41,711 nucleotides of DNA. It comes from Alphaproteobacteria bacterium (GTDB taxonomy: Bacteria; Pseudomonadota; Alphaproteobacteria; Rhodobacterales; Rhodobacteraceae). Both the position numbers and the translations under genes were made by a program. The notes beneath the pieces are model-generated. The model saw nothing but the letters and a program-made list of their open reading frames with translations. It was not told where the DNA came from and ran no database searches. The stretch covers positions 1 through 41,711 of the forward strand of contig JAUHWP010000013.1 in NCBI GenBank assembly GCA_030424645.1, given 5' to 3'. Of this stretch, positions 1 through 41,711 are shown in pieces; the stretch's first letter is position 1, and each line of letters opens with the position of its first letter.

Positions 1-830
1 GCTTGATCGAAGCGGGACGGGTGACGGTAAATGGCACGGTGATTGACAGCCCCGCCCTGAACGTCACCCCCAAGGACGAGATCCTGTTCGATGGCGCACC
101 GCTGGCCGAGCCTGAACCGCCGCGGATGTGGTTGTATTACAAGCCTATCGGCCTTGTAACGACCGAGCGGGACGAGAAAGGGCGCGACACTGTCTTTGAC
201 AAGCTTCCCGAAGATCTTCCCCGGGTGATGAGCGTCGGACGGCTTGACCTGAATTCCGAAGGCCTGTTGCTTTTGACCAATGACGGCGAGGTCAAGCGTA
301 AGCTGGAACTGCCGTCGACCGGCTGGTCACGCAAGTACCGCGTGCGGGTCAACGGCCGCCCGACCGAGGATACACTGACCCCCGTGCGCAAGGGCCTGAC
401 CATTGACGGCGAACGTTTCCAACCCATGTCGGTGTCGTTGGACCGCCAGCAGGGCGCAAACGCGTGGCTGACAATCAGCCTGCGTGAAGGCAAGAACCGC
501 GAGATTCGCCGCGCGATGGAGGCGATTGGCCTGACCGTCAACCGCCTGCTGCGCGTCAGCTATGGCCCCTTCCAACTGGGCGAGCTGAAACCCGGCGAAG
601 TCGAGGAGATTCGCCCGCGCGTGGTGCGTGATCAGTTGGGGATGGAGGGCGCAAAACCCGCCCCGGTCCGCAAGCGTGCTGGGTCGGGCGGGGCGAAGCC
701 TGCGGGGAAACCGCCGTTCAAGAGCGCCGGTCGCCCCGGCGGAAAGCCCGGACAACGCCCCATGGGTAAGGGCAATGGGGGAAAAGGCGGCGGCAAGCCC
801 TCAGGCCGCCCATCGCCACGCAAGAAATAG
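1..830 (+). CDS. rluB: 23S rRNA pseudouridine synthase RluB (5' end off the window)
   Basis: Pseudouridine synthase of the RsuA/RluB/RluE family, which isomerises a uridine in the peptidyl-transferase region of 23S rRNA. The reading frame is open from base 3, so the N-terminal start of the S4 RNA-binding domain lies outside the window; about 20 residues are probably missing. The remaining S4 part (LIEAGRVTVNG) is followed by the catalytic-domain motif GRLDLNSEGLLLLTNDG, whose Asp (about residue 82 of the visible part) is the family's catalytic Asp, and by GKNREIRRAMEAIG. The last 60 residues are a low-complexity tail rich in Lys, Gly, Pro and Arg, common on alphaproteobacterial RluB and probably a flexible RNA-binding extension. 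The gene converges on xseA with only 12 nt between stops. RluB rather than RsuA is inferred from the tail and overall likeness. Confidence 0.9.
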   Translation, partial: LIEAGRVTVNGTVIDSPALNVTPKDEILFDGAPLAEPEPPRMWLYYKPIGLVTTERDEKGRDTVFDKLPEDLPRVMSVGRLDLNSEGLLLLTNDGEVKRKLELPSTGWSRKYRVRVNGRPTEDTLTPVRKGLTIDGERFQPMSVSLDRQQGANAWLTISLREGKNREIRRAMEAIGLTVNRLLRVSYGPFQLGELKPGEVEEIRPRVVRDQLGMEGAKPAPVRKRAGSGGAKPAGKPPFKSAGRPGGKPGQRPMGKGNGGKGGGKPSGRPSPRKK

Positions 831-853
831 CGCTGTAGAGCACTAGAACAGCG
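831..853. terminator. Small bidirectional hairpin between rluB and xseA
   Basis: A 6-bp stem (cgctgt / acagcg) with an 11-nt loop sits directly after the rluB stop, and the xseA stop codon lies in its loop. It has no T-tract on either strand, so termination is only a guess from its position between two convergent genes. Confidence 0.25.
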
Positions 854-2351
854 ACCCCTGATCGGGGGCGTCCTTTTTCGGCTTCGCCTTGCGGGTTGGG
901 GATTGCGGTGACGGCTGCGGCGACGCCCCGCCGTCCAGCGCCAGCCGACCATCCGCAAATTCGATCTCAAGCGCCTTGGCTTTCGCAGCCGCGACCTGCG
1001 AGGTCACAACATGCCCGTCACCGCGCACCACCGCATAACCCCGCTTCAACGTCTCGGTATATCCCAGCGTCTGGCGCATCCGCTCAAGCGCCAACAACCT
1101 GTCATTGTGTGACTTGGTGTTGGCCCGAAAGGCACGATCCAGCCGCGCCGACAGATTGGTCATATCCAAAGCCCGGCGCTTGTTGGCATCCGTAATCCGG
1201 CTGGGGTCCAGCCGTGTCGCCGCCATCGCAAGCCGGTCCCGCATCGGGGCAATCCGTGCGGTCAACACACGCGGGCGCAGACCCGCCGATGCCTCGGACA
1301 GTTTCACCCGCCGATGCTGTGTCAGGTGACGCAGGGCCGATGGCAGCTTGTGGCTGGCGTTGTCCAATCGCTGGCGCGGGGTGTCCAGCAAGGTGTCCGG
1401 GCGTGGCAAGGCCCGCGCCATGTCGCGAAGACGCTGACCGCGTTGTGTCAGGGCCTGTTCCAGTGACCGGGTCAGACGGGTGCCCTGTTCCTCGGTCCAT
1501 GCCAGAAGCTCCATCCGCACCGGCACCGCATGTTCGGCCGCCGCCGTGGGCGTCGGCGCGCGCAAGTCCGACACAAAGTCGATCAGCGTCGTATCCGTTT
1601 CGTGCCCAACCGCCGAGATCAGGGGAATCTCCGACGCCGCCGCGGCACGGGCGACGATTTCCTCGTTGACCCCCCACAGATCCTCGATCGAGCCACCACC
1701 GCGCGCGACGATCAGCAAATCGGGACGGGGCAGTGCGCCGCCCGGTGTCAGACGGTTGAAGCCCTCAATCGCGGCGGCCACCTGCGGCGCGCACGACTCG
1801 CCCTGCACAGCGACAGGCCAGATCAGCACCTTGCGCGGGAAGCGATCGCGCAAACGGTGCAGAATATCGCGGATGACAGCGCCCGAAGGCGAGGTGACGA
1901 CCCCGATCACCTCGGGCAGGAAAGGCAGCTTTTTCTTGCGTTCGGGCGCGAAAAGCCCCTCTGCCGCCAGTGCTTTCTTGCGCTTTTCCAACATCGCCAT
2001 CAACGCGCCTTCGCCCGCGACGACAACATCATCAACGTTCAGCTGATATTTCGACTGGCTGCCAAAGGTGGTCAGCTTGCCGGTGACAATGACCTCCATC
2101 CCTTCTTCCGGGCGGATCGACAGGCGGCTGACCTGCCCTTTCCAACTGACGGCGGCCAACACGGACCGATCATCCTTCACATCGAAATACAAATGACCCG
2201 AGCGCGCCAGCATCACGCGCCCCACCTCGCCACGCACACGGACGCGGCCAAAGGCCCCCTCGATGGTTTTCTTAACCGCGCCTGAAATCTCCGAAACGGT
2301 AAACTCGGGCGCGTTCTGGCCGGGGGTGGGGTCGTCGATCAGGTCGGACAT
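843..2351 (-). CDS. xseA: Exodeoxyribonuclease VII large subunit
   Basis: Large, catalytic subunit of ExoVII, which with XseB degrades single-stranded DNA in both directions. The product is 502 aa from the chosen start. The N-terminal OB-fold region (FTVSEISGAVKKTIEGAFG, about residues 15-110) is followed by the nuclease domain with VARGGGSIEDLWGVNEE and SAVGHETDTTLIDFVSDLRA, both family hallmarks. A helical C-terminal region follows and the protein ends in a Lys/Pro-rich tail. The ATG at 2351 (MSDLIDD) is chosen over a start at 2489 because it has a GAGG ribosome site, removes 46 residues with no family likeness, and avoids a 63-nt overlap with the divergent purD. No xseB is visible in the window. 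Confidence 0.95.
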   Translation of the reverse strand: MSDLIDDPTPGQNAPEFTVSEISGAVKKTIEGAFGRVRVRGEVGRVMLARSGHLYFDVKDDRSVLAAVSWKGQVSRLSIRPEEGMEVIVTGKLTTFGSQSKYQLNVDDVVVAGEGALMAMLEKRKKALAAEGLFAPERKKKLPFLPEVIGVVTSPSGAVIRDILHRLRDRFPRKVLIWPVAVQGESCAPQVAAAIEGFNRLTPGGALPRPDLLIVARGGGSIEDLWGVNEEIVARAAAASEIPLISAVGHETDTTLIDFVSDLRAPTPTAAAEHAVPVRMELLAWTEEQGTRLTRSLEQALTQRGQRLRDMARALPRPDTLLDTPRQRLDNASHKLPSALRHLTQHRRVKLSEASAGLRPRVLTARIAPMRDRLAMAATRLDPSRITDANKRRALDMTNLSARLDRAFRANTKSHNDRLLALERMRQTLGYTETLKRGYAVVRGDGHVVTSQVAAAKAKALEIEFADGRLALDGGASPQPSPQSPTRKAKPKKDAPDQGSLF

Positions 2352-2426
2352 GCTGCCTCGGTTCTTGTGCATTCTGTCATGCGACCTTAGAACGCCGATG
2401 ACGGAAGGCCAAGCAGGGGACGAGCC

Positions 2427-3689
2427 ATGAACATCCTTATTCTGGGAAGCGGAGGGCGCGAACACGCCTTGGCATGGGCGGTCATGCAAAACCCGAAATG
2501 CGACCGGCTGATTGCCGCGCCCGGCAATGCGGGCATGGCGCAGATCGCAGACTGTGCCAAGCTGGATATCGAAGACGGCGACGCGGTGGTGACCTTTGCA
2601 CAGGAAAACACCATTGATTTCGTGATCGTCGGCCCCGAAGCCCCCTTGGCGGCGGGCGTGGCCGACCGGTTGCGCGAAGCCGGGATCAAGGTGTTCGGAC
2701 CGTCGGCGGAGGCCGCAAAACTGGAAGCATCAAAATCCTTTACCAAGGAAATCTGCGACGCGGCAGGCGCACCAACCGCGGCCTATGGCCATTTCACCGA
2801 TGCCGACGCCGCCAAAGCCTATATCCGCAAGCAGGGTGCCCCAATTGTCGTCAAGGCCGATGGACTGGCGGCAGGCAAAGGTGTGATTGTCGCAATGGAC
2901 GAGGCGACCGCGCTGGGCGCCATTGATGACATGTTCGGCGGCGCCTTCGGCGGGGCCGGGGCCGAAGTCGTGATCGAAGAATTCATGGAGGGCGAAGAGG
3001 CGTCCTATTTCATCCTGTGCGATGGCAAGACCGCCTTGCCCATCGGCACCGCGCAGGATCATAAGCGCGTGGGTGATGGTGACACCGGGCTGAACACTGG
3101 CGGTATGGGGGCATACTCCCCGGCACCCGTTCTGACCGACGCGATTGCCGCCCGTGCCATGCGCGAAATCATCGAACCGACCGTTGCCGAGATGGCCAAG
3201 CGCGGCACGCCCTATCAAGGCGTGCTCTATGCGGGTTTCATGATCAAGGACGGGCAGGCCCGGCTTGTGGAATACAATGTGCGCTTTGGCGACCCGGAAT
3301 GTCAGGTCCTGATGATGCGGCTGGGGGCGCAGGTGCTGGACCTGATGCTGGCCTGCGCCGAAGGGCGGCTGGACGAGGCCAAAGTGAACTGGGCCGACGA
3401 TCACGCGCTGACCGTGGTGATGGCGGCAAATGGCTATCCCGGCGCGTATCAGAAAGGGTCCGTCATCAACGGGCTGGATGACCTGCCGGAAGATTCCCAG
3501 AACATGGTCTTCCACGCCGGCACCACCGAGGTCGACGGCAAGATCACCGCAACGGGTGGGCGGGTTCTGAACGTCACCGCCCGCGGTGACAGCCTGCAAG
3601 ACGCCCGCGACCGCGCCTATGCGATGATTGACAAGATCGACTGGCCCGAGGGGTTCAACCGGTCGGATATCGGCTGGCGGGCGCTTTAG
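2427..3689 (+). CDS. purD: Phosphoribosylamine-glycine ligase (GAR synthetase)
   Basis: Second step of de novo purine synthesis: ATP, glycine and 5-phosphoribosylamine give GAR, ADP and phosphate in the cytosol. At 420 aa it is full length. The N-terminal nucleotide-binding-like domain starts [16 protein letters not shown] and carries [14 protein letters not shown]. The ATP-grasp domain has [35 protein letters not shown] and the metal-site segment [19 protein letters not shown]. The C-terminal domain closes with a short [11 protein letters not shown] end. It is divergent from xseA, with 75 nt between starts, and ends 15 nt before the stop of the convergent FG-GAP-like gene. Confidence 0.97.
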
Positions 3690-3704: not shown

Positions 3705-4417
3705 CTAACAGCCCAACCGCGCCGACAGGCTGTCCGGCCCCTGATACGGGCCGACATTGGTCAGTTTCAGTTCGCCCCTGTCCAGACGGGTTTCAATGAC
3801 CCGTGACCAGTTGGCGCTGGCCGTCACGACAACGGGCGACTCGCCCTCGCAATCGCGGATGCCGCCTTCGATCACCGGGCTGCCGAACTTATGGTTGGTG
3901 ACACCCCCGACCGAGGTCAGCGGAGTGATCGCAAAACCGTCCGCAGCGGGCCTGACCGTCACCAGCGTGAGCCTGCGCGCCAGATGGGGGCGATCGACGT
4001 AAGCAATCTCGTCCACCCCATCACCGTTGAAATCTGCGATGCCCGCCACGGCCAGCCAACGGTGGCGGGTGCCTATGGGGCTGTTGGCGCCGCGCAGCAC
4101 CAGCTTTCCATCGTCCCACGCATAGATGCGGATCATCGCGCCCATATCATCGCCGCTGAACACGGTCACGATCTCGGGCAGGCCATCGCGGTCGAAATCA
4201 TGCAGGCGGGGTTTCGCATCTTCGAACACGCCGCCCGTGACACGCGCGATTACCCGCGCACCATCCGCCCGGGCGACCTCAAGCGCGCCATATTCACCAC
4301 CGGGAACCGCCCCGTGGCCATAACGATCTGTCGGTTCGACATAGCGGGCCGATGTGATCTGCGCCGAAGCCGGCGCTGCGAGGCACAGGATAATCAGAAC
4401 GGCCCGCAGACCGACCA

Positions 4418-4418
<1 letters not shown>
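3705..4418 (-). CDS. Secreted FG-GAP/VCBS-repeat-like protein
   Basis: 237 aa with a clear signal peptide (hydrophobic VLIILCLAAPASA, cleavage probably after ASA at residue 19), so exported. The centre has two Ca2+-loop-like segments, HDFDRDGLPEIVTV and IADFNGDGVDEIAYVD, matching the D-x-D/N-x-D-G-x-x-E/D-I pattern of FG-GAP/VCBS beta-propeller repeats. Too few repeats are visible for a whole propeller. It has five Cys, two of them near the C-terminus. The start ATG overlaps the ferredoxin stop by one base (TGATG), so the pair is translationally coupled although one product is cytosolic and the other exported. No enzymatic motif is seen and the function is unknown. Confidence 0.85.
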
Positions 4419-5056
<638 letters not shown>

Positions 5057-5401
5057 TCAGAACGGGTTGGCCATGAACCCGGCAATGGCGGTCGTTACGG
5101 GATCATCCTGCATGATCCAGGCCCCGGCCTGTTCAATCATCGACCCCTGCGCCAGCCTGTCAACGCGGTCATTATAGTTGATCGCACCGACCTGACTGAA
5201 CAGGAAACCCTTGAACAGCATGAACCCGACAAGCGTCAGGATCAGCCCCTTGATCGGAAACCCACGCCGCATTCTGGGTTTGCTGGGCACCAAAAGCCCG
5301 TCACGTTCAACCAGTTGAACATAACCCTGTGACAAACGGCGATGCTGGCGGCTAATTCCGCGCACGCGCTTTTGAAAGTCTTGAACTTGTGCATCAGTCA
5401 C
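5057..5401 (-). CDS. Small single-helix membrane protein, unknown function
   Basis: 114 aa from a GTG start. The N-terminal half is basic and helical (DFQKRVRGISRQHRRLSQGY). One strong membrane segment follows at about residues 48-66 (FPIKGLILTLVGFMLFKGF), then a short, probably periplasmic C-terminal part rich in Asp, Gln and Met. The GTG at 5401 is chosen because GGGAGG lies 9 nt upstream and the codons before it translate to AT-rich, non-protein-like sequence. It follows prmA on the same strand with a 109-nt gap, so it probably has its own promoter. I do not recognise a named family. Confidence 0.7.
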   Translation of the reverse strand: MTDAQVQDFQKRVRGISRQHRRLSQGYVQLVERDGLLVPSKPRMRRGFPIKGLILTLVGFMLFKGFLFSQVGAINYNDRVDRLAQGSMIEQAGAWIMQDDPVTTAIAGFMANPF

Positions 5402-5503
5402 GTTCAATGTCCTCCCACAATTTAATAAATTCAAAAATATACACCCAAGTTCAGAATATGGCAAAAAAGTGATTAAGGCCAGAATTCTGTCAAACTTTCG
5501 TAT

Positions 5504-5521
5504 AAAAAAACTAGTTTTTTT
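5504..5521. repeat. A7-CTAG-T7 palindrome over the prmA stop
   Basis: A perfect 18-nt palindrome: seven A, CTAG, seven T. The TAG in its centre is the stop codon of prmA. It may act as a weak terminator for prmA; on either strand the arm ends in a run of T. An all-AT stem is unlikely to be a strong terminator. Confidence 0.4.
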
Positions 5522-6380
5522 GAAGCACGAGTGTCGTCCAGTCAACAATCTCGGCCCGTTCGACCAGATTGAACCCGTTATCGAGATAAACCGAGATCAC
5601 TTCATCTGCCTGAGGGTTCAGAATGCCCGACAGAATCGCATAACCCTTGGTAGAAAGGTGTTTGGCCATGTCCGGCGCAAGTCCGATCAACGGCCCTTTC
5701 AAGATGTTCGCGAACACAAGATCGAAGGGCGAGGCTTCCCGAAGCTGCGGGGCATTGAACCCCGCGGCCTCGACACAATGGACCCGCTCTTCCAGATTGT
5801 TGGCGGCAACATTCGCCTTGGCGACATCCACCGCCACCGCATCAATATCGCTGGCCAGAACCGGGTGGGGCCAGACGCGCGCGGCTGCCATCGCCAGAAC
5901 CGCCGTGCCGCACCCGATATCGACGACGTTCTTCCCGACAAATCCCTGATCCACCAAGCCATCCAGCGCCTTCAGGCAGCCCAGCGTGGTGCCATGATGC
6001 CCGGTGCCAAAGGCCATCGCGGCTTCGATCAGCAGGGCGATCTTTCCCTCGGGCACATGATCGGCATCATGGCTGCCATACACAAAGAAGCGCCCCGCCT
6101 CGACCGGCGACAATTCGCGGCGCACATGCGCGACCCAATCCACCTCGGGCAGCTGTGAAACGGTGAAGTCCTTCGCCTTGTGCATCGCCGCCAGCAATGC
6201 CAGCCCCGCCGCATCCGGTTCTTCGGTGAAATAACCGCCGACCTCCCACAGGCCGCTGCCATCCTCGATCTCGAACACGCCGACGCCGGTGGGTTCGGGG
6301 GTCAGAGCCTCCATCGCCAGGCCAAGCGCTTCGGCGGCATCCTGACCTTCCAGCGTGGTAAGAGCGGTCCAAGTCGACAT
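5511..6380 (-). CDS. prmA: Ribosomal protein L11 methyltransferase
   Basis: SAM-dependent methyltransferase that trimethylates ribosomal protein L11. It is 289 aa, full length. The N-terminal substrate-recognition part is followed by the conserved AFGTGHHGTTLGCLKAL and the SAM-binding NVVDIGCGTAVLAMAAARV (about residues 155-173). The acidic end of the next strand is ASDIDAVAVDVAKAN, and the catalytic-site motif is FANILKGPLIGLAP. The ATG at 6380 has AGGA upstream. The next upstream gene, an MFS carrier, lies 80 nt away on the same strand. The reading frame ends inside an A/T palindrome. Confidence 0.95.
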   Translation of the reverse strand: MSTWTALTTLEGQDAAEALGLAMEALTPEPTGVGVFEIEDGSGLWEVGGYFTEEPDAAGLALLAAMHKAKDFTVSQLPEVDWVAHVRRELSPVEAGRFFVYGSHDADHVPEGKIALLIEAAMAFGTGHHGTTLGCLKALDGLVDQGFVGKNVVDIGCGTAVLAMAAARVWPHPVLASDIDAVAVDVAKANVAANNLEERVHCVEAAGFNAPQLREASPFDLVFANILKGPLIGLAPDMAKHLSTKGYAILSGILNPQADEVISVYLDNGFNLVERAEIVDWTTLVLQKN

Positions 6381-6460: not shown

Positions 6461-7696
6461 CTACTCTGCCACCTGTGGCAGGGGGCGCGAAAACACGGTC
6501 TCATTCCCCTTCTCCGGGTGACGCGGGATCAGCAGGGACAGCAGTAACGAAACACAGGCCATTGCCGCCGCCAGTCCAAAAACACCCCCCGGCGATACAA
6601 CCCACAGATACCCCAGCAGCGCCGGCAGGAACACGGCGGCGATATGGTTGATGGTAAAGGCCACAGCGGCGGTCGGGGCAATGTCCTGCGGGTCCGCGAT
6701 TTTCTGGAAATAGGTTTTCAGCGCGAAAGCCAGCGCGAAGAACAGGTGATCCAGCACGTAAAGCACCGCGGCCAGCACCACGCCCCAGCCGAAATAATAG
6801 ATCCCGCCATAGGCCAGGAACACGCAAACCAGCCCTGTATATTCAAAGACCAACGCACGCCGTTCGCCCCACTTGGCAACGGCCTTCCCCATCAGCGGGG
6901 CGAAGAAGATGTTGGCGATATAGTTGATCAGGAACAGAGCCGTGACCTCGTGCACCTCGAACCCGAAGCGTTCGACCATCATGAAGGCGGCGAAGACGGT
7001 GAAGATCTGACGCCGGGCGCCTGCCATGAACTGCAACGCGTAATAGAGCCAATAGCGGCGGCGCAGCACGAACTGCTTCAGTTGCGGCTCGGGGCTTTCG
7101 AACTGCGGATAAGCAAAGAAACAGAATACGGCGATGGCCAGCGTGGCGCCACCCGCGATCATGTAGACCAGATTGTAGCTCAGATCGAAGGTCTTCCAGG
7201 TCAGCACAAGCAAGCCATAGCTCAGCAGCGCCGCGGCCGAGCCGATGGACATGATCCAGCCCAGCATCTGCGGTGCGCGCTTCTTGTCGATCCATTGAAG
7301 TTGCAGCGACTGGTTGACCGTTTCGAAATAATGAAACCCGATCGACGACAGCATCGTGATGGTCAGGATACCGCCAAAGGTCGGAAACCACGCGGTGATG
7401 GCGGTGGCCGCCCCCAGAAGCGCCAGCGCCACGACGCCCAGCACCTGCTCGCGAAACAGCATCAACAGGGCGATCACACCAATGGCCAGAAAGCCGGGGA
7501 TCTCGCGCACCGTGTGCAGCCAACCGATTTCGACCCCGGTAAAGCCTGCGGCCTCGATCACGAAGTTGTTCAGAAGTGCAGACCAGGTGAAGAACGCAAT
7601 CGGCATTCCCGCCGCCATCAACATCAAAAGAAAGATGGGGCGGCGCCAGAACGGAAGCGTCCGGGCTTCGTCAAGGGTCAGGATCTGGTGTCTCAT
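6461..7696 (-). CDS. Major facilitator superfamily transporter
   Basis: 411 aa with about twelve hydrophobic segments, beginning after a short cytosolic N-terminus (MRHQILTLDEARTLPFWRR). MFS traits include a longer basic loop in the middle (SPEPQLKQFVLRRRYWLYYAL) and a second-half loop GKAVAKWGERRALVFEYTG that corresponds to the family's loop-2/8 motif. The substrate cannot be read from sequence. It is divergent from the YeeE-type transporter with 133 nt between starts, which could mean shared regulation but does not prove a sulfur substrate. Start ATG 7696 lacks a strong ribosome site. Confidence 0.85.
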   Translation of the reverse strand: MRHQILTLDEARTLPFWRRPIFLLMLMAAGMPIAFFTWSALLNNFVIEAAGFTGVEIGWLHTVREIPGFLAIGVIALLMLFREQVLGVVALALLGAATAITAWFPTFGGILTITMLSSIGFHYFETVNQSLQLQWIDKKRAPQMLGWIMSIGSAAALLSYGLLVLTWKTFDLSYNLVYMIAGGATLAIAVFCFFAYPQFESPEPQLKQFVLRRRYWLYYALQFMAGARRQIFTVFAAFMMVERFGFEVHEVTALFLINYIANIFFAPLMGKAVAKWGERRALVFEYTGLVCVFLAYGGIYYFGWGVVLAAVLYVLDHLFFALAFALKTYFQKIADPQDIAPTAAVAFTINHIAAVFLPALLGYLWVVSPGGVFGLAAAMACVSLLLSLLIPRHPEKGNETVFSRPLPQVAE

Positions 7697-40040: not shown

Positions 40041-40990
40041 TGAAGCTGTTTATCTCGCGCCCCTTGCCCGACGCTGTGATCGACCGCGCCCGCAAGGGGT
40101 TCGATGTGACATTGCGCACCCAAACCACCTCGATGTCGCGCGATGAGATGGTGGCCAGCCTGCGCGACTACGATCTGGTGCTGCCGACGCTTGGCGATCT
40201 CTATTCTGCCGACGTGTTTGACGCAGCGGGCGATATCCGCGCCAAGCTGCTGGCGAATTTCGGCGTCGGCTATAACCATATCGACGTGGACGCCGCCCGC
40301 GCCCATGGGATCGCTGTATCCAACACACCGGGCGCTGTGACGGACGCGACCGCCGACACCGCGATGACCTTGATCCTGATGACCGCACGGCGGGCGGGCG
40401 AAGGCGAACGCATGGTGCGGGCGGGTCGTTGGGACGGCTGGCACCCGACGCAGATGCTGGGGCTGCACGTTACCGGCAAAACCGTCGGCATTATCGGCAT
40501 GGGCCGTATCGGTGAAGCCATCGCGGCCCGTTCCCACCATGGGTTCGGCATGGATGTGGTGTTCTTCAACCGATCCCCGAAATCGCTGCCCTTCCCGGCG
40601 CGTCAGCGGGACAGCCTTCAGGACGTGGCAGGCGCCTGCGACATCCTGGTGATCGCGGTGCCCGGTGGTGCGGACACCCGGCACCTGATCGGCGCCGAGA
40701 CCTTCGCCGCCATGCGCGGCCACGCCATTCTGATCAACATTGCACGCGGCGAGATCGTGGACGAAGCCGCCCTGATCGCGGCACTCGACGCCGGTCAGAT
40801 CGCTGGTGCGGGTCTGGATGTGTACGAGTTTGAACCCAAGGTGCCTGACGCCCTGATCGCGCGGGAAAACGTGACCTTGCTGCCCCATCTGGGCACAGCG
40901 ACGCTAGAGGTTCGGACCGCAATGGGAATGCTGGCGGTGGACAATCTGGAAGCCTTCGCGGCAGGCAAACCGCTGGTCAGCCCGGTGTGA
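40040..40990 (+). CDS. D-2-hydroxyacid dehydrogenase (glyoxylate/hydroxypyruvate reductase-like)
   Basis: 316-aa NAD(P)-dependent dehydrogenase. The substrate domain has ANFGVGYNHIDVDAARAHG. The dinucleotide motif is GKTVGIIGMGRIGEAIAAR. Catalytic residues are Arg in LINIARGEIVDEAAL, Glu in GLDVYEFEPKVP, and His in TLLPHLGTATLEV. Arg in FFNRSPK after the second strand suggests NADPH preference, as in glyoxylate/hydroxypyruvate reductases. Coupled to csaA by TGATG. Its stop lies 14 nt inside the convergent tdk fragment. Exact substrate is not determined. Confidence 0.92.
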   Translation: MKLFISRPLPDAVIDRARKGFDVTLRTQTTSMSRDEMVASLRDYDLVLPTLGDLYSADVFDAAGDIRAKLLANFGVGYNHIDVDAARAHGIAVSNTPGAVTDATADTAMTLILMTARRAGEGERMVRAGRWDGWHPTQMLGLHVTGKTVGIIGMGRIGEAIAARSHHGFGMDVVFFNRSPKSLPFPARQRDSLQDVAGACDILVIAVPGGADTRHLIGAETFAAMRGHAILINIARGEIVDEAALIAALDAGQIAGAGLDVYEFEPKVPDALIARENVTLLPHLGTATLEVRTAMGMLAVDNLEAFAAGKPLVSPV

Positions 40991-41336
40991 TCGAGGCGTC
41001 GCCCCCTGTGTCACCCACCGCTTCGCGCCAATGTCGGCGGCAGAGCGAAACATATGTTTCGTTCCCGCCGATCTGGACCTGATCGCCAGCGGTCAGCACA
41101 TTGCCTTCCCCGTCCTGACGCACAACCATGGTGGCCTTCTTGCCACAATGGCAGATCGTGCGGACCTCGCGCATTTCATCAGCCAGCGCCAACAAAGCAG
41201 CAGAACCGGGAAACAGCTTGCCCTGAAAATCCACGCGCAACCCATAGCACATGACCGGCACGCCCAGATCATCGACCACGCGCGCCAGTTGCCAGACCTG
41301 TCCGGGTTCAAGGAACTGGGCTTCGTCGATGAATTC
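40977..41336 (-). CDS. tdk: Thymidine kinase, C-terminal two-thirds only (cut at a junction)
   Basis: Type II thymidine kinase, which phosphorylates thymidine in the salvage pathway. Only about 118 C-terminal residues are present: FIDEAQFLEPGQVWQLARV, CYGLRVDFQGKLFPGSAAL, and the zinc lid with TICHCGKKATM and ETYVSLCRRHW (Cys pairs). The N-terminal ~75 residues with the P-loop are absent. Upstream of FIDEAQ the frame runs into unrelated residues (KKRLKE and beyond) that are antisense to a DUF1402-like gene. The break falls on a GAATTC at 41331-41336. As shown the gene cannot make an active enzyme; in the source genome it is probably intact. Confidence 0.88.
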   Translation of the reverse strand, partial: EFIDEAQFLEPGQVWQLARVVDDLGVPVMCYGLRVDFQGKLFPGSAALLALADEMREVRTICHCGKKATMVVRQDGEGNVLTAGDQVQIGGNETYVSLCRRHWREAVGDTGGDASITPG

Positions 41337-41711
41337 TTTCAGGCGCTTTTTCGTTGCGACCGCGGCCGCGCTTGCCGTCGTCCTGACCGGTTCGCTGCCG
41401 GCGCCGGTGGCAGCCGCCGATGTCATCGTGGTTCCTCCCGGCAACCAGTTCGAGAGGCAGCCCCGCGTCGACAAGGGGTCCCGCGCCCTGACGGCGATGG
41501 GCGGCGGATCGTTCAAGACCAAGTATGACAAGGTCTACAACCTTCTGAAGGGCAACCCGAAGCTGATCGCCGAGATCAAGCGGGTTGCCGGAATCTACGG
41601 CATCGACCCGATCCACGTCATCGGCGCGATCGTCGGCGAGCACACCTATAACATCGACACCTACGACTCGCTGCAGACCTACTACGTCAAGGCGATGCAG
41701 TACGTGTCGGA
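41329..41711 (+). CDS. Secreted DUF1402-like protein, 5' part (runs off the right edge)
   Basis: Open from ATG 41329 to the end of the window without a stop (127 codons). A signal peptide is clear (MNSFRRFFVATAAALAVVL, then TGSLPAPVAAA, cleavage after AAA). The mature part reads IVVPPGNQFERQP, FKTKYDKVYNLLKGNPKL, and YGIDPIHVIGAIVGEHTYN, which I recognise as DUF1402, a family of exported proteins mostly from Rhizobiales (Rhizobium, Agrobacterium, Mesorhizobium). The family's role is unknown. It is not expected next to tdk in a Rhodobacterales genome; see the junction finding. The true start may differ if the first codons belong to the tdk side. Confidence 0.8.
   Translation, partial: MNSFRRFFVATAAALAVVLTGSLPAPVAAADVIVVPPGNQFERQPRVDKGSRALTAMGGGSFKTKYDKVYNLLKGNPKLIAEIKRVAGIYGIDPIHVIGAIVGEHTYNIDTYDSLQTYYVKAMQYVS

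Follow-up and report, generated by a model that had tools for sequence, protein, structure and literature searches.

The question raised by this locus is why a thymidine kinase gene (tdk) breaks off inside a conserved motif and gives way, without any interval, to the start of a gene for a DUF1402 protein. The window analysed here, that is, the whole stretch of DNA considered, is the complete contig C177 of 41,711 nt, which belongs to a draft genome (G000) of 3.24 Mb in 208 contigs with a completeness of 91.62% and a contamination of 0.64%. Since the window is the whole contig, the tdk/DUF1402 join sits at a contig end. The host presumably belongs to Rhodobacterales, an assignment that fits the gene set of the window. 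The break was first pointed out in a preliminary description of the sequence, and it is real: read on the minus strand, positions 41333 to 40977 fit the Pfam TK profile from position 82 to its end, and the DUF1402 gene directly adjoins this part.

To the left of the join, the sequence is shared by the genus of the host. Every one of the 20 other same-genus genomes holds a DNA match to the tdk part of the window, and G014 is the nearest of the relatives at this gene. The end region of the window as such is matched in 41 of the 61 genomes searched, a number that includes the host draft itself. The likeness to tdk does end abruptly, as described, although not at 41331: the limit of the match is exactly 41333 in 19 of the 20 other same-genus genomes and 41346 in one. 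When the neighbouring dehydrogenase was compared with plasmids by tblastn, the best match came from Pseudorhodobacter (63%), followed by Roseateles, Leisingera and Aminobacter, a set of matches that does not identify the host.

To the right of the join, a plus-strand frame stays open to the contig end and matches the DUF1402 profile (PF07182) at positions 3-102 with 131 bits, its ATG at 41329 overlapping a GAATTC at 41331-41336, in agreement with the preliminary description. The tail protein has its best relative in Bauldia litoralis ATCC 35022, the two being identical at 91% of their amino acids; the protein scan behind this assignment found four loci and may omit records very near the window. 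B. litoralis belongs to Hyphomicrobiales, and the Rhizobiales type proposed earlier for this protein is thereby supported. At the DNA level, B. litoralis matches the window from 41313, a position within the tdk motif, up to 41708 with no gap in between; one base to the left of this match, at 41312, the window and B. litoralis differ. The best relatives of the two sides are different organisms, namely same-genus genomes on the left (20 of 20) and B. litoralis on the right. The earlier suspicion that the last ~375 nt come from another organism is supported, with 227 of 228 positions identical to B. litoralis up to 41540. Its placing of the foreign DNA to the right of 41331 was correct as to the side but not as to the start, which is 41313 and overlaps tdk by 21 nt (Table 1).

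Table 1. Features at the right end of the window, with positions counted from its first base.
Feature	Position	Strand	Evidence or remark
3' part of host tdk, FIDEAQF to stop	40977..41333	-	Pfam TK PF00265 positions 82-176, 105.7 bits
Shared 21-nt word: tdk and the region just before plus the start of the B. litoralis DUF1402 gene	41313..41333	.	Limits of both matches
Foreign segment 1, start of DUF1402 gene (ATG 41329); its first 21 nt are the word shared with tdk	41313..41540	+	227/228 identical to Bauldia litoralis ATCC 35022
GAATTC, EcoRI-site sequence native to B. litoralis DNA; chance	41331..41336	.	Present in L026
Putative foreign segment 2, DUF1402 frame continues	41541..41711	+	41541-41708 identical to B. 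litoralis at 142/168

A DUF1402 gene might have been a normal possession of the group to which the host belongs. We rejected this possibility, as the profile was found above the cut-off in none of the 20 other same-genus genomes (two of which are less than 90% complete) and in none of 247 further genomes sampled evenly across the family, one of these (G130) giving a match below the cut-off. As for the rest of the 6.4-kb Bauldia locus, the other matches in the draft show an identity of 70-71% only, and none exceeds 71%. A literature search on DUF1402 returned no paper.

The tail is not uniform along its length. Identity to B. litoralis falls abruptly from the first foreign segment (41313-41540) to the second (41541-41708). 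As far as 41540 the tail is essentially B. litoralis, also over 41334-41412, another Bauldia being identical to B. litoralis at only 48 of these 79 positions; over 41541-41708 it stands at 142/168 to each of these two Bauldia, which are themselves identical to each other at 155/168. Altogether, 27 differences fall in 396 sites, with just one in the first 228 (hypergeometric P ~1e-9, and 0 of 20,000 permutations), where it should be kept in mind that the breakpoint was picked after seeing the data and that the sites are not independent. Such a drop after 41540 suggests a second switch, and the last 171 nt (41541-41711) probably derive from a second Bauldia-like organism, while natural recombination within the donor may also lie behind the change at 41540. 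A search of 28 genomes belonging to the B. litoralis family did not find the donor of 41541-41711: 23 of the 28 contained some match, and over this part alone the best among the matches listed of at least 100 nt reached 86%.

The GAATTC at the join had been regarded as notable and as a hint of ligation, and a chimera produced at an EcoRI site by restriction-ligation or cloning would indeed leave this sequence at 41331-41336. However, a religated fragment would end at the site, and so would its partner, yet the similarity to B. litoralis continues unbroken for 18 nt further to the left (41313-41330), so that the site lies inside unbroken Bauldia litoralis DNA. GAATTC is also absent from the corresponding place of tdk in all 19 related loci read, and its frequency in the window, 13 occurrences against 13.88 expected, is no higher than chance. 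The count, the similarity to the left of the site and the 19 loci without it led us to reject this explanation, which is scarcely credible. From the earlier alternative of a ligation or an assembly chimera, it is the assembly chimera, with a Hyphomicrobiales tail, that stands, whereas ligation at a restriction site does not.

It had been stated that the half of tdk carrying the P-loop was gone. A PF00265 profile search of the same draft, nevertheless, found two places, the part in the window and C172:7432-7608 (profile positions 1-59). Contig C172 is 7,626 nt long, and by our reading by eye the 5' part of tdk covers C172:7429-7626, starting with an ATG at 7429, including the MNAGKS P-loop and reaching the very last base of the contig. 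The loss of the P-loop half is rejected accordingly, the missing half being carried by C172, and the true continuation of tdk is present elsewhere in the same assembly.

The position of C172 relative to the window could be followed in relatives. In all 19 related loci that were read (L007-L025, 18 from the same genus and one from the same family, the window's own locus apart), the end of C172 follows window position 41333 after a constant 54 nt, or 18 codons; the query in this comparison was cut at 41333, so it informs on the spacing only. In each of the 3 relatives compared, moreover, most of C172 can be aligned next to tdk. The alignment of its end reaches the last base in all three relatives in one comparison and in 8 of the 19 loci in another, the remaining 11 halting 1-13 nt short of it. 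Because the other half of tdk lies on C172, the 54-nt spacing holds in 19 of 19 loci and C172 stands beside tdk in 3 of 3 relatives, tdk is probably intact in the host and split by a gap of ~54 nt between C177 and C172.

The other ends of these two contigs were compared with relatives as well. At the left end of C177, G006 and G009 align from base 1 onwards, and G007, G012 and G014 from base 4. For the start of C172, three relatives were compared, of which two align from base 1 and one from base 3. A foreign tail is present on one of the four ends, the right end of C177 only. Within the window, positions 1-3000 have a match in a single piece in G006, G007, G009 and G012 and in four pieces in G014. 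Within C172 (L005), G014 and G007 lack the stretch 3772-5551 at the corresponding position, and G006 has it. An open frame of this stretch (4106-5572) looks like a glycerol kinase gene (glpK), and ~155 nt of the stretch (3826-3981) find an inverted match in G014 and G007.

The join might be taken for the trace of a natural transfer, an illegitimate recombination at the 21-nt microhomology having brought Bauldia DNA into tdk. The microhomology does exist, the foreign frame is open, and a transfer at this place would give an identical junction. Foreign DNA bordering the other half of tdk, or occurring in relatives, would speak for such an event; yet C172 ends inside tdk, is tdk to its last base and bears no foreign tail. 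The far junction of a foreign insert may lie inside the 54-nt gap. Against a transfer there also stand the counts given above for DUF1402 in the genus and in the sampled family, the identity of 227/228 to a distant lineage, which would require a very recent event, and the tail itself, which is mosaic, only 378 nt long and placed at a contig end. Overall, we regard a natural transfer as very improbable, and we give just as little credit to its most specific form, a very recent transfer from a Bauldia-like bacterium that used the 21-nt microhomology and inactivated thymidine kinase in this strain.

Exactly 21 nt are common to both sides, because the similarity to tdk ends at 41333 and the similarity to Bauldia starts at 41313. 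This word has one copy in the draft and one in the B. litoralis genome (G292), and it occurs in none of the 8 other same-genus genomes tested. From base composition only, ~36 shared 21-mers are expected by chance between genomes of 3.24 and 5.1 Mb. When the model was checked on the sequences in hand, words of 10-17 nt were common 1.9-4.0 times more often than modelled, and at 18 nt none was observed where 0.1 was expected. In view of the number expected and of this check on shorter words, a chance overlap of 21 nt between the two genomes is ordinary. The base that follows 41333 in the window, T, is absent in 18 of 19 relatives and present in one; since the host's own base at this point is unassembled and one relative has the T, the overlap may be slightly longer than 21 nt.

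Common short-read assemblers such as SPAdes and MEGAHIT usually have 21 as their smallest k, and an exact word of this size is what the join contains at 41313-41333. Such evidence induces us to conclude that the join is most likely an ordinary assembly error and not biology: the tail of 378 nt (41334-41711) was, with high probability, attached by a misjoin at the contig end via the shared 21-mer. This reading draws directly on the two halves of tdk, on the 54 nt that separate them in every related locus read, and on the 21 nt that tdk and the Bauldia DNA have exactly in common. The true tdk would run from C177 through ~54 unassembled bases to the end of C172. Reads of a Bauldia-like organism in the same sample would have held the same 21-mer, and at the point where reads no longer covered tdk, a de Bruijn-graph assembler, presumably working at k=21, would have walked into the Bauldia-like DUF1402 gene. 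A further switch, into another Bauldia-like sequence, probably took place near 41540 before the assembler stopped.

A physical chimera that arose before assembly, by template switching at the 21-nt match during amplification or library PCR, is a further candidate, as template switching also works through short matches. However, it is hard to see how one chimeric molecule could have taken the contig past a second switch near 41540, and the length of the overlap equals a common assembler k. We therefore hold this explanation to be quite improbable, and return to the assembly misjoin.

The consequences of the misjoin concern quality control only: C177 should be trimmed of positions 41334-41711 and regarded as a neighbour of C172. 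The tail should not be taken as a case of gene transfer, nor as the loss of tdk. As an artefact, the case is unusually complete: we identified the word at the overlap, the place where tdk truly continues, and the source of the first foreign segment.

Finally, we would like to compare the elements of this locus with known systems. Measured against thymidine kinase of Pfam PF00265, tdk shows no known difference in the gene itself, but it is split over two contigs, the part in the window covering profile positions 82-176 and the part on C172 positions 1-59. The DUF1402 gene (PF07182) is the same as that of Bauldia litoralis at 227 of 228 nt over 41313-41540, and it differs from it in the lower identity over 41541-41708 and in stopping where the contig does, at profile position 102 of 300. 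As to the join, a de Bruijn graph can give rise to chimeric contigs when two species have a stretch in common, according to a passage of PMC8171044 in which chimeric contigs are counted also for MEGAHIT and metaSPAdes. The 'chimeric nodes' of MetaVelvet described in that part of the source (PMC8171044) resemble what we propose here, in that a shared stretch lets a path of the graph cross from one species into another. In the MetaVelvet case, however, as that passage presents it (PMC8171044), the stretches belong to evolutionarily similar species, whereas here the crossing would have used a chance 21-mer between distant lineages at the end of a contig.
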